The translations under genes were made by a program, and so were the position numbers. Positions 3,395 through 8,083 of a DNA stretch of 8,083 bases are shown in pieces (position 1 is the stretch's first letter; each line of letters opens with the position of its first letter). Below the pieces are notes generated by a model that saw nothing but the letters and a program-made list of their open reading frames with translations, was not told the DNA's origin and did no database searches. Source of the DNA: Pseudomonadota bacterium (lineage in GTDB: Bacteria > Pseudomonadota > Alphaproteobacteria > Acetobacterales > Acetobacteraceae); NCBI GenBank assembly GCA_021779655.1, contig JAJYAF010000080.1:1-8083 (forward strand), in the 5' to 3' direction.

Positions 3395-4114
3395 CTAAGG
3401 CGTCTGCCGCCAGACCCGCCGCTTGGTCGCCACCGCCAGGAAGGTGAGGAAAATCAGAAACAGCACCATCCGCAGGCCGATCTGCTTGCGCGCGTCCAGG
3501 TTCGGATCGGCGGCCCAGCTTAGGAACGCCGCCACGTCGGAAGCCTCCTGCGCGGCCGTGGGCTTCACCCCGTCCGCGTAAGCGACCTGACCATCCTTCA
3601 GCGGCGGCGGCATGGCGATCTGCCCGCCGGGGAAGGCCGCGTTATAGAAATGGTCCGGCAAGAGGGTGACATCCGCCGGCGGATTGGCATAACCGGTCAG
3701 CAGGTCGAAAATATGGCGCGCGCCATGCCGGTGCGTGGCGGCGAAGCTGGAAAGATCCGGCGGCAGCGCCCCGCCGAAAGCCGCCGCGGCGGCGGCGGGA
3801 TCGGGGTATGGGTTCCTGAACACGCTGTCCATCGTGGCCGGCCCGTCCGCCAGCTTCACGTCGGAGGCCAGCGCCGCCACCTGCGCGGTGTCGAACCCAA
3901 GCGCCGTCAGATCCCGGTAGTGGAGCGCGTTCATGCTATGGCAGCTTGCGCAAACCGTCTGATACACCAGATAGCCGCGTTGCAACGCCGCCTTGTCATA
4001 ACCGCCGAACGTGGCGTCGGACGACCAGCGCGGCGGCGAGAGGCTGTCCTCCGCCCGCGCGTGGTGGCTCAAAATCCCGAAGGCCGCGACGGCGGCGAGC
4101 AGCAGCCGGCGCAT
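3395..4114 (-). CDS. petC: Cytochrome c1 of the bc1 complex
   Basis: A 239-residue cytochrome c1 of ubiquinol-cytochrome c reductase. Residues 1-21 form a Sec signal peptide ending in ARA. The haem is attached at CASCH (55-59) within VYQTVCASCHSMNALHYRDL. The axial methionine is M168 in FPGGQIAMPPPLKDGQ; the ALPPDLS segment (116-122) is also conserved. A single C-terminal membrane helix (about 213-229) anchors it, with KRRVWR on the cytoplasmic side. The gene follows petB with a TAATG overlap (petB stop 4116-4114, ATG 4114-4112) and a good GGGAGG site 6 nt upstream. It normally takes electrons from the Rieske protein and gives them to soluble cytochrome c. Unlike its two partners it has every expected cofactor residue, so it is the conserved end of this unusual complex. 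It is the last gene of the operon. Confidence 0.95.
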   Translation of the reverse strand: MRRLLLAAVAAFGILSHHARAEDSLSPPRWSSDATFGGYDKAALQRGYLVYQTVCASCHSMNALHYRDLTALGFDTAQVAALASDVKLADGPATMDSVFRNPYPDPAAAAAAFGGALPPDLSSFAATHRHGARHIFDLLTGYANPPADVTLLPDHFYNAAFPGGQIAMPPPLKDGQVAYADGVKPTAAQEASDVAAFLSWAADPNLDARKQIGLRMVLFLIFLTFLAVATKRRVWRQTP

Positions 4115-5229
4115 TATACGCCTCCCGTTGTAAGCGGCGTTATGATCAGGAAATGCACGAAATACCAGGCCACGAACAGGCAGGCAGGAATGGCGGTCCC
4201 AACCGCCGGCGAGGCGGCGAGGGCCAGGGCGATCACATCCGCAGCCAGCACCCAGACAAAGAATTTATAAAGCGCGCGAGAGGGCCGGCCCGGCGGCGTC
4301 CGGTCCAGCCAGGGCAGGGCGTATAGCACGGCCAGCGCGGCTATCACGGCGAAAATGCCGCCATAGCCCGGCAGCGCGCCGCCCAGCGCCGAGAACGGCA
4401 GCAGATACCAGGGCGGGGTGAGCGCCGTGGGGACCAGCAGCGGGTTCGCGGGCGCCAAATTCAACAAATTCTCGCCCAGATGGGGCATGAAGAACAGAAC
4501 CACCGCGAAGATCAGCGCGAAGATTACGAATGCCGCGAAATGCTGCGCCGTGTAATAGGGATGAAACGCCACCATCCGGCGCCCCGGCGCGGCCGCGGCC
4601 AACCGGTTCGCGCCGATCACGGCCATGGCGGCCAGCAGAATCAGCAACCCGAACACGCCATGAAACATCGCCATGCGGCCAAGCGTGCCCGCCCCCGCCG
4701 GCCCGCCGAATATCCAGCCGGCGATCTCGCCGCCCGGGCCTCCCAAGCGCAAGCCGGCAAGCGCCGTGTCGCGCAGGCTCCAGGCGCTCACCGCGCCATC
4801 CGTCAGCACATAGCCGAACCAGCCGGTAAGCAGCAGCAGAATGAACAGGTTGAGCTTGAAGAACCAGGCGAGATCATAGGCCCCCCGGTATTCGCCGGTG
4901 AGGATGGCGCGGAACAGCAGCAGATAGGCGGCGGCGAAAATCATCGTCGCGCCGCTGGTATGCAGGGATTGCAGAAGCCAGCCGAAATTCACGCTGCGGC
5001 TGATATATTGGATGGAATGGTAGGCATCCCCCCCGCGCGCGACGTAGTAAACGCCCAGCACCAGGCCGCTCAGCGCCAGCAAAACCGCCATGCCGAGGAT
5101 CAGCGCGGGCAGCGCGGCGAAATAAGGCTGCTCACGCGGGCTTTGGTAGCCGGCAAACATGGCCCGCCAGGCGGCGCATAAAGGCAGCCGGTTTTCCAGC
5201 CAGGAACGGGAGGCTTGCTCGGTGGCCAT
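4114..5229 (-). CDS. petB: Degenerate cytochrome b of the bc1 complex (heme bH ligands missing)
   Basis: A 371-residue polytopic cytochrome b with about eight membrane helices, recognisable from SWLENRLPL at the N-terminus, SLHTSGAT, FGYVL, NPLLVPTALTPPWYLLPF and VPWLD-like ALPWLD. It would normally carry two b haems and form the quinol (Qo) and quinone (Qi) sites. The heme bL pair is present: H90 and H190. The two heme bH histidines should lie 14 residues after each; those positions are L104 (YLLLFR instead of YLHIFR) and V204. The Qo motif PEWY is PPWY (272-275), and GYVLPWGQMSFW has become GYVLTDGAVSAW. The arginine before the first histidine (RYLH) is also replaced (QSLH). Start ATG 5229 is chosen because it aligns with family N-termini and has GGAG at 5244-5241; an upstream extension to 5367 only reads through petA. 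The gap after petA is 17 nt. The frame is open throughout. Function cannot be a normal Q cycle. Confidence 0.88.
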   Translation of the reverse strand: MATEQASRSWLENRLPLCAAWRAMFAGYQSPREQPYFAALPALILGMAVLLALSGLVLGVYYVARGGDAYHSIQYISRSVNFGWLLQSLHTSGATMIFAAAYLLLFRAILTGEYRGAYDLAWFFKLNLFILLLLTGWFGYVLTDGAVSAWSLRDTALAGLRLGGPGGEIAGWIFGGPAGAGTLGRMAMFHGVFGLLILLAAMAVIGANRLAAAAPGRRMVAFHPYYTAQHFAAFVIFALIFAVVLFFMPHLGENLLNLAPANPLLVPTALTPPWYLLPFSALGGALPGYGGIFAVIAALAVLYALPWLDRTPPGRPSRALYKFFVWVLAADVIALALAASPAVGTAIPACLFVAWYFVHFLIITPLTTGGV

Positions 5230-5246: not shown

Positions 5247-5828
5247 TTAACCGAACTGGATTTGGGTATCGTTGAGGAATGTAAAGCGCGGTATCGCCAG
5301 GTTCTTCTTCGCTGGCCCGCCGCGCACCCGCCCCAGCGGGTCGTAAATGCTGCCATCGCATGGGCACAGCCAGCCATCGAACGGCCCGCGCGGATCGGCG
5401 GGATCGTTGCCCGTCAACTCGCAGACGATGCCGGTATTCAGGCCCACGACCACCACGAAATTTTCATATCCGGGCTTCACCCGCTGGTCGAGGCTGGCCG
5501 GGTCCGGCAGCGTTGCCGGCACCACGAATTCATTATCCGCGACCTGCTGCGCTGTCAGCTTGCGGATATAGATGGGCTGACCCAGCCAGACGAAGCGCAG
5601 GGCGGTATTTTCCGCGATGCCGCCGACATTCACGATCGGCCGGGCCAGCGCGAGCGAGCGGCCGGCGGGGTTGAGCGCGTCGATGAACGGCCAGGCCAGC
5701 GCCCCGAGACCGACCATGGCGGTGGAAACGGTGAGAATCTTAAGGAAATCGCGCTTTGCGCCGTCATGCGGTCCCGCATGGGAGGCACCGCCTTGATTTC
5801 CCGCCACCGATGCCTCGCTCCCAGCCAT
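5247..5828 (-). CDS. petA: Degenerate Rieske subunit of the bc1 complex (both His ligands missing)
   Basis: A 193-residue protein with the full layout of the Rieske subunit: a short N-terminal tail, AKRDFLKIL followed by a membrane segment (about 30-47), WPFIDALNP at the hinge, and a periplasmic domain ending in GPAKKNLAIPRFTF. In the family, box I CTHLGC and box II CPCHGS hold a 2Fe-2S cluster with two Cys and two His. Here box I is CELTGN (136-141) and box II is CPCDGS (155-160). C136 and C155 remain, but the ligands His become L138 and D158, and the disulfide partner of C157 is N141. The export signal has KR where most Rieske proteins have RR. Start ATG 5828 has AGGAG 5 nt upstream; an ATG at 5873 would add 15 residues without a better site. 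First gene of the operon, divergent from hemF. Homology is certain; a canonical cluster is not expected. Confidence 0.9.
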   Translation of the reverse strand: MAGSEASVAGNQGGASHAGPHDGAKRDFLKILTVSTAMVGLGALAWPFIDALNPAGRSLALARPIVNVGGIAENTALRFVWLGQPIYIRKLTAQQVADNEFVVPATLPDPASLDQRVKPGYENFVVVVGLNTGIVCELTGNDPADPRGPFDGWLCPCDGSIYDPLGRVRGGPAKKNLAIPRFTFLNDTQIQFG

Positions 5829-5840
5829 CTCCGCTCCTGC
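5829..5840 (-). promoter_or_regulatory. petA: Ribosome binding site deciding the petA start
   Basis: Read on the minus strand the sequence is GCAGGAGCGGAG directly before ATG 5828. AGGAG (5838-5834) is spaced 5 nt from the start codon. This is why the shorter petA product is preferred over the one starting at 5873. Confidence 0.7.
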
Positions 5841-5925
5841 CTGTTCTTGATCCGCCCGGCAAGGCATGGCCAATTAAGCGAAAAATTTCAAGAGGCCGCG
5901 CTTTCAGGAAATTCCTATTCGGCGA

Positions 5926-6045: not shown

Positions 6046-6915
6046 ATGACAAACATACCAAGCCCGCCGCCGCATGAGGCGCTGAAACCGGCGGCCAGCG
6101 CCTGGTTCGCGGCATTGCGGGACCGCATCTGCGCCGCGTTCGAGGCACTCGAGGACGCATACGATCCCGCGACCCCGGGCGGCCGGTTCGCACGCACGGC
6201 CTGGGACCGGCCGGGCGGCGGCGGGGGGGTGATGAGCGTGATGCGCGGCCGGGTGTTCGAGAAGGTAGGCGTGAACATCTCCACCGTCTCCGGCAGCTTT
6301 ACGCCGGAATTCGCCCGGCAGATCCCCGGTGCCGAGGAAAACGCCGCCTTCTTCGCGTCCGGCATCAGCCTGGTTGCGCACATGCAAAGCCCGCGCGTGC
6401 CGGCGGTGCACATGAACACGCGGCTGATCGTGACCACGAAAGGCTGGTTCGGCGGCGGCGGCGATCTCACGCCGTTGCAGCCGGGAACGCCGCAGGCGGC
6501 CGAGGACGCGGCGTTCTTTCATGCCGCCTACAAGGCGGCATGCGACCGCCACGACCCGGAATATTATGCACGCTTCAAGGCGTGGTGCGATACGTATTTT
6601 TATCTGCCGCACCGAAACGAGCCACGCGGCGCCGGTGGCATTTTCTACGATTATCTCGATTCCGGAAACGCCGAGCGGGACTTCGCCTTCACCCGCGACG
6701 TGGGCGAGGCGTTTCTTGCCGCCTACCCGCCGATTGTCCGGCGCCGGATGCTCGAACCCTTCACGCCCGAGGAACGGGAGGCCCAGCTCATCCGCCGCGG
6801 GCGCTATGTGGAGTTCAATCTGCTATACGACCGGGGAACGATGTTCGGCCTGAAAACCGGCGGCAATACCGAAGCGATTCTGATGAGCCTGCCACCAGAA
6901 GTGAAATGGCCATAG
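6046..6915 (+). CDS. hemF: Oxygen-dependent coproporphyrinogen III oxidase
   Basis: HemF converts coproporphyrinogen III to protoporphyrinogen IX with oxygen in haem synthesis, as a cytoplasmic dimer. The 289-residue product shows the family blocks in order: [14 protein letters not shown] (70-83), [12 protein letters not shown] (120-131), [10 protein letters not shown] (134-143), [19 protein letters not shown] (180-198) and [16 protein letters not shown] (250-265), then [19 protein letters not shown] at the end. E. coli HemF continues about 25 residues further, but alphaproteobacterial proteins, as I recall them, often stop at this W-P, so I treat it as complete. Start ATG 6046 has GGAG at 6034-6037, 8 nt upstream. 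The gene is divergent from the bc1 operon. Haem made here would feed cytochromes such as petC. Codon use is like its neighbours; the DNA after its stop is much poorer in G+C. Confidence 0.95.
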
Positions 6916-7362: not shown

Positions 7363-8083
7363 TTGGCAAGAAAACTTCAAACACCCTCGGGCGCGGAGGT
7401 GGTTGCCCTAGCTTACGAAGCCGCGTTGGAGCCGGCCCGGCTGCCCGAACTGGCCGAGGCGATGGCGCGTGTGGCCGGGGCGGAGGCTTCGATCTGGCTC
7501 GAAAGCACAGGACGCTCGCGGCAGGCAGCGGGCATGATGCAAACCGGACTCAGCCAGGCCATAATGGAGCAATACGCCTGCACGGCTTGGTCCAGCCCGC
7601 TGGTCCCGGCATTGTTAAAGGTCGCGCCAGAGGTAGCGAAAACCGATAGGATGCTGCTGGACCGCCGGATTTTCGAGCGCAGCACCTTCTATCAGAACTG
7701 GGTACGCCCGCTCGGATTGGGGGAGGGGTTGATCGTCAGTTTCGCCCCTCTGCAGCAGGAGAGTATCGCCGTAACCCTTCTCCGCGATTCCCGCACCAGA
7801 CTGAACTGGACGGCGGGTTCACCGGATTTCAAACGATTCTGCCAGGTTGTTCCTTATATCGGCCGCGCGGCGGTGTTACGCACCCAGCTGAACATGCACG
7901 CCGGGGCTACTCCCGCCGGGGCGGCCAACGCTTTTCGATGCGCTGCGCATCGCTGTGCTGGCGGTGGATCGTCAGGTCCGGCCGCTTTGGGCGAATAGCC
8001 AAGGCCAGGCGCTGCTGCGCCAGGCGGATGGACTGAGCAGTACGCGCGAGGGCTTGCGGGCGAATAACGCGGCTTCAACCCAG
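7363..8083 (+). pseudogene. LuxR-type transcriptional regulator, N-terminal part, frameshifted
   Basis: The first frame runs 7363-7998 (211 codons) from a TTG start with AGGA at 7352-7355, 7 nt upstream. Its N-terminal sensor part resembles a common proteobacterial group of LuxR-family regulators: VVALAYEAALEPARLPELAEAM (residues 13-34) and RRIFERSTFYQNWVRPLGLG (101-120) are typical. After N189 the reading degrades into low-complexity Ala/Gly/Cys. One base over, from GAT 7937 to the window end, an open 49-codon frame continues the family pattern (DALRIAVLAVDRQVRPLWAN, then GQALLRQADGLSSTREGLRA). Removing one T of TTTT at 7932-7935 joins the two as NAFDALRIAVL. The DNA-binding helix-turn-helix would be beyond the right edge and is not seen. 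Pseudogene, sequencing error or frameshifted expression are all possible. Confidence 0.7.

Follow-up and report, generated by a model that had tools for sequence, protein, structure and literature searches.

Can a cytochrome bc1 complex be retained once the ligands of its redox centers are gone, and what could it still do? This question is raised by the petABC operon in an 8,083-nucleotide stretch of DNA from an acidophile-type member of the Acetobacteraceae (contig JAJYAF010000080.1, assembly GCA_021779655.1), hereafter called the window. The initial annotation of this locus had described an iron-sulfur subunit without its two histidine ligands. In the present analysis, we examined all three subunits and their relatives (Table 1).

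Table 1. Features of the petABC locus in the window
Feature	Position	Strand	Remarks
petA, Rieske (iron-sulfur) subunit of bc1 type, three of four cluster ligands lost	5247..5828	-	193 aa from ATG at 5828
petA, true box I, NTGIVC	5421..5438	-	ungapped alignment to canonical CTHLGC; codons
petA, box II, CPCDGS	5349..5366	-	alignment, codons
petB, cytochrome b, 371 aa	4114..5229	-	
petC, cytochrome c1, 239 aa	3395..4114	-	PF02167, 230.8 bits
hemF, divergent neighbor of petABC	6046..6915	+	PF01218

Cofactor sites in the three subunits

By sequence family, fold, anchor, and place in the operon, PetA is a bc1 complex Rieske subunit by descent. With TIGR01416, the NCBI model for bc1 Rieske proteins, its score of 120.1 bits exceeds the cut-off of 97.4 bits, and a Pfam search returned only the signal/anchor family PF10399, with no match to the Rieske domain PF00355 at an E value of 0.001. 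An Rfam search of the window and a PADLOC search with PetA yielded nothing. The mechanical open reading frame (ORF) extends to a TTG at position 5873 (208 aa), and residue numbers follow this ORF; the ATG at 5828 is the likely start. The twin-arginine motif within the ORF (5247-5873, minus strand) reads Lys-Arg in the window, and among the 153 family rows with a residue at position 40, Arg is found in 122 and Lys in 31, followed by Arg41 in all 153. The Tat-type signal is retained although the protein lacks a cluster around which to fold.

The register of the two cluster-binding boxes was taken from a local alignment of 155 family and 46 canonical rows. The family rows comprise the window, 120 listed proteins of the 258 found, and 34 of 80 loci (L001 to L034, here called shell loci); 152 of the 155 are distinct over the aligned part, and they sample a single family, as the window or relatives of it served as search seeds. 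The canonical rows are the loci L035 to L080. The window segment VGLNTGIVCELTGN aligns with IGICTHLGCVPLGN of canonical locus L037 without a gap, placing VGLNTGIVC opposite IGICTHLGC, and a phmmer alignment of PetA to 2yiu_C gave the same register. Box I is N146-T147-G148-I149-V150-C151, located five residues earlier than the CELTGN segment that had been assigned to it. Its ligand Cys is replaced by Asn146 (AAT, 5436-5438) and its ligand His by Gly148 (GGC, 5430-5432), and the first disulfide cysteine, C151 (TGC, 5421-5423), is kept (all on the minus strand). Box II had been read correctly as CPCDGS; here, the ligand Cys C170 and the disulfide Cys C172 are kept, and the ligand His is replaced by Asp173 (GAT, 5355-5357, minus strand), which is the previously reported Asp158 when counted from the ATG at 5828. 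Mapped onto the bovine scheme, with the ligands Cys139, His141, Cys158, and His161 and the disulfide Cys144-Cys160, the window equivalents are Asn146, Gly148, Cys170, and Asp173 and the pair Cys151-Cys172.

Three of the four cluster ligands are thus lost, with C170 remaining, and neither box holds the Cys/His pair expected of a functional bc1 Rieske protein. Both disulfide cysteines are present in the window and in all 155 family rows, so that the bond itself may still form. The box I ligand Cys is Asn and the box II ligand His is Asp in 155/155 family rows, the box I ligand His is Gly in 133 and Ala in 22, and the box II ligand Cys is conserved in 133, being replaced by Ser in 21 rows and by Ala in one; all 46 canonical rows, in contrast, have the ligand set C, H, C, H together with the two disulfide cysteines. 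Judging from these ligand sites, the window PetA is unable to hold a normal [2Fe-2S] cluster.

The initial annotation was therefore right that cluster ligands are missing, with the amendment that three rather than two are lost and that the disulfide pair is kept. Leu138 and Asn141, which had been taken for the lost box I histidine and a lost disulfide cysteine, both lie after box I; the true histidine site is Gly148, and Asn occupies the position of Asn141 in 17 of the 46 canonical rows. The span formerly marked as affected, 5355-5423, includes the Asp173 codon and misses both lost ligands of box I. An alignment of relatives, proposed as a check, bore out the argument that an intact frame speaks against a single read error: N, G/A, and D stand at the three sites in every family row. 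A read error or frameshift in petA is ruled out by this agreement and by the relative P0001, whose PetA is 94% identical and carries the same ligand replacements.

The losses extend to PetB. A functional cytochrome b has four His for two hemes b and the glutamate of PEWY, and PetB lacks two of the former and the latter. The heme bL ligands His90 (4960-4962) and His190 (4660-4662) are kept, both heme bH positions have lost their His (Leu104, 4918-4920; Val204, 4618-4620), and PEWY is changed to PPWY (Pro273, 4411-4413; all on the minus strand). Among 89 related proteins (P0121 to P0209), none keeps both bH His, His90 is present in all 87 with a residue at this position, and His190 is present in 86, the three exceptions including one fragment and one frame-disturbed row. 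In the 35 loci formed by the window and L001 to L034, a bH His remains in helix B only in 8, in helix D only in 10, and in neither in 17, where L026 has a gap at the second bH site in one alignment; His90 is found in 35/35 and His190 in 34/35 (Leu in L001). The Glu-to-Pro change of PEWY occurs in all 35 loci. PPWY is also found in one row with all four His, and therefore proves nothing by itself, the glutamate being usual and not universal. As far as its ligand positions tell, PetB has no bis-His pair with which to hold heme bH in the usual way.

PetC has kept its heme motif, C55-A-S-C58-H59 (3938-3952), and its axial Met168 (3611-3613, both on the minus strand), and both features occur in all 34 rows available, L008 ending before petC. 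From these motifs, cytochrome c1 looks intact. In locus L174 of genome G185, which has petB-petC without petA, the CxxCH of c1 is kept and the axial Met region is lost.

Elsewhere in the window, a DsbA-like thioredoxin-fold protein (PF13462; 83-775, minus strand) is encoded beyond mutY, dciA, and a dipeptidase gene. No match to this protein was found in L001 to L080 at an E value of 1e-6, and hence no link to PetA is suggested. At the other end (7363-8083, plus strand), an ORF lacking Pfam matches stops at 7998, and what looks like its continuation runs in a different frame from about 7925 to the end of the window; the two may belong to a regulator gene whose frame is changed.

Ancestry, selection, and order of losses

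The pairing of hemF with petA, with orientation preserved, recurs in 32 of the 34 shell loci and in 26 of the 46 canonical loci, the rest being partly cut by contig ends. Since this gene order is common to canonical alphaproteobacteria, it points to orthology of the operon, i.e., to an ancestral operon and not a spare copy. Cytochrome c1 was matched in 33 of the 34 host genomes; G008 gave no match, as its contig ends there, in G016 a further fragment sits on a separate contig, and six genes appear as two pieces. TIGR01416 was exceeded in 35 of 41 genomes, in one place each: 33 host genomes, G367, and G227. In the 33 hosts, this sole place is the genome's own petA; in the remaining host, G033, the locus is cut at a contig end. 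No second bc1-type Rieske protein above the TIGR01416 cut-off was found in the 34 host genomes. Based on the c1 and TIGR01416 counts, a spare paralog beside a working bc1 complex is ruled out for these hosts. PF00355 gave many matches in 17 genomes, which look like oxygenase-type proteins judging by frame lengths.

Pairwise dN/dS values (NG86, pairs with dS of 0.2 to 1.5, all of them divergent and non-independent) had medians of 0.30 for petA (491 pairs), 0.45 for petB (477 pairs), and 0.26 for petC (356 pairs) in the shell set and of 0.34 (236 pairs), 0.33 (228 pairs), and 0.50 (132 pairs), respectively, in the canonical set. Given this dependence between pairs and a canonical set that is unmatched, we take from these numbers only that they are well below 1 and, less surely, that petB is somewhat relaxed. 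Values of this size suggest purifying selection on petABC among the relatives. At the cluster site, the single residue Asn146 is encoded by both synonymous codons across the 35 loci (AAC in 22, AAT in 13), as is Asp173 (GAT in 20, GAC in 15), while PetB positions 104 and 204 show 12 and 11 residue types, His included. This indicates that the cluster replacements are fixed and the bH sites drift; by their codon usage, the Asn146 and Asp173 replacements look selected.

To place these losses in time, we used a survey of 397 genomes from the family of genome G020, in which a cytochrome b profile matched in 358 and found no match in 39. Cytochrome b scores set 18 genomes apart (378 bits or more above the gap, 328 or less below it); the shell genomes G018 and G019 score among the canonical ones, where others may hide, and shell-like genomes number at least 20. 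These 20 are made up of 14 Rieske-bearing shells (13 of the 34 hosts plus G367), five genomes without petA, in which petB-petC stands beside hemF, and G227. At locus L172, the latter encodes a Rieske protein whose boxes, CPHRGC and CPCHGA, retain the complete set of four ligands, together with a cytochrome b that has PPWY and no bH ligands. In box II of this Rieske protein, the usual Ser and Tyr, residues with an influence on the cluster potential, are replaced by Ala and Phe.

A quick tree of 58 concatenated rows grouped the 36 shell rows in one clade that is sister to six other rows, both forks having an SH-aLRT value of 100; a long-branch warning applies to this tree, and the rows used as outgroup do not separate from the rest along a single branch. 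On the assumption that His was never regained, the sequences suggest that the shell clade lost its Rieske ligands first and the bH ligands later and repeatedly, whereas the sister clade would have lost the bH ligands first and petA afterwards. The two sister clades thus probably followed opposite orders of loss. The fewest changes on unordered states were six for helix B and four for helix D, a count that is blind to loss versus gain.

Possible roles of the complex

We consider it likely that the window petABC is the ancestral operon of an Acidocella-type acetobacterium that has turned into a non-catalytic complex III "shell" and is kept mainly as a structural platform; that it assembles and has a function is predicted from sequence. 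Without a normal cluster and without a bis-His heme bH, the complex should be unable to oxidize quinol in the bifurcated manner that the Q cycle requires, given the known behavior of bc1 complexes. The Rieske head would retain its fold and its disulfide cysteines and leave the normal [2Fe-2S] cluster unbound, serving as a folded, disulfide-locked part. Cytochrome b would form the membrane platform, in which heme bL plays a structural part, and cytochrome c1 would be the one center likely still carrying electrons. From the purifying selection on the operon of the relatives, we infer that the assembled shell does something independent of the Q cycle. Such a platform might hold a respiratory supercomplex together, and electrons might pass from periplasmic donors via heme c1 to cytochrome c oxidase (COX), a possible relay. 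The loss of one bL ligand in L001 and of the c1 Met region in L174 implies that neither feature is indispensable.

What the platform does may depend on its partners. Stabilization of Complex I in a supercomplex, proposed with reference to Paracoccus work in PMC10715153, is one form of a structural role, and as the specific function we regard it as rather doubtful. It agrees with NuoD matches at E values below 1e-100 in 28 of the 34 hosts and in 7/7 other genomes with shell-like cytochrome b. However, of the 39 family genomes lacking a cytochrome b match, 20 were examined, and 14 of these have such a NuoD match as well, so that Complex I persists there without bc1; their placement in the family is uncertain, and they are not a matched control. 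Similarly tentative is the proposal that the shell acts as a membrane dock passing electrons from periplasmic c-type cytochromes, for example, of an iron oxidation chain, through heme c1 to COX. The c1 ligands conserved in 34/34 shell rows and the dN/dS of petC, the lowest of the three shell genes, speak for such a relay, as does the distribution of COX2. A full COX2 match was obtained in 31 of the 34 hosts, with G016 and G029 giving weak matches and G025 giving none, and in all seven further genomes with shell-like cytochrome b, versus 6 of the 20 examined genomes without a cytochrome b match, an association confounded by kinship. The CuA motif was read in all 20 host loci fetched. However, COX can run on soluble cytochrome c alone, and a c1 without the Met region exists in L174. 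Moreover, G057, which lacks both a cytochrome b match and a petABC operon next to hemF, carries a COX2 fragment 81% identical to that of a shell genome; COX therefore has no strict need of the shell. In the shell genome G367 (L197), COX2 has Ile at the expected CuA Met.

Alternatively, the operon could be a slowly decaying relic, still present because little time has passed or because losing a single part is harmful. The drifting bH sites, the absence of petA from the operon in five sister-clade genomes, and the missing operon at hemF of G057 would fit this scenario. Yet the frames have stayed open over large synonymous divergence (dS up to 1.5 was used), dN/dS is well below 1, and none of Asn146, Asp173, C151, and C172 varies among the 155 rows, which makes decay distinctly unlikely. 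The initial annotation had suggested that the subunit is kept for structure or binds something other than a normal cluster. The first part of this interpretation is in line with the non-catalytic shell favored here, while binding of another metal or cluster through C170, Asp173, and Asn146 is most improbable: the latter two are invariant, but both His positions are lost, and C170 is Ser or Ala in 22 of the 155 rows. A more far-reaching version, which we consider rather unlikely in its entirety, is a repurposed complex in which a selected Asn/Asp pair rebuilds the empty cluster site, bL is structural, and c1 is a quinol-independent dock feeding COX, reached in two sister clades by opposite orders of loss.

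Relation to known bc1 complexes and implications

Compared with canonical alphaproteobacterial bc1 complexes (Paracoccus, 2yiu; Rhodobacter, 2fyn), the window shares the fold, operon order, anchor, disulfide cysteines, and the bL and c1 ligands and differs in the loss of the cluster ligands, the bH ligands, and the PEWY glutamate. A "deranged bc1 complex" has been described for Acidocella and Acidiphilium (Degli Esposti et al. 2023, PMC10715153). In its accessible passages, the Acidocella form is characterized by a Rieske protein lacking three or four ligands, the disulfide pair, a cytochrome b without bH, an intact c1, and petABC, and the window shows all of these sequence features; as a difference, the nearest proteins of the window are at 94% (PetA) and 87% (PetB) identity. 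The Acidiphilium form, given there as petBC without a Rieske gene, corresponds by description and not by name to L168, L170, L173, L174, and L176. These loci resemble the window in the bH-less cytochrome b, the kept bL His, the adjoining c1, and the neighboring hemF and differ in having no petA at the operon, with no TIGR01416 match above the cut-off in the five genomes. L172 of G227 is intermediate: like the window, it has a bH-less cytochrome b with PPWY, but its Rieske protein keeps all four ligands; it is possibly the Acidisoma taxon mentioned in the same paper, which also discusses the box II Tyr.

The deranged state as such is already published. New are the lineage of the window, the corrected register of box I, the fixed Asn/Asp beside drifting bH sites, and the probable opposite orders of loss. 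The accessible part of PMC10715153 holds no statement on selection on the replacements or on opposite loss orders, and the word "purifying" has no occurrence in that paper. By title and beginning of the abstract, no other report of these losses was found in the open-licence literature; in the passages from PMC12654162, the 2023 paper appears only in the reference list, and those parts of PMC4013037 that deal with these genera are silent on the losses.

The NCBI equivalog model TIGR01416 lets a clusterless Rieske protein pass its curated cut-off, and annotation thereby conceals the loss. Many of the related proteins are named "ubiquinol-cytochrome c reductase iron-sulfur subunit"; with such standard names and a model that accepts clusterless PetA, genomes can seem to have a working Q cycle. 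A complex III without its chemistry, kept in at least 34 species-level genomes, would set the structural roles of bc1 apart from its catalytic ones, a separation that is difficult to achieve in ordinary organisms.
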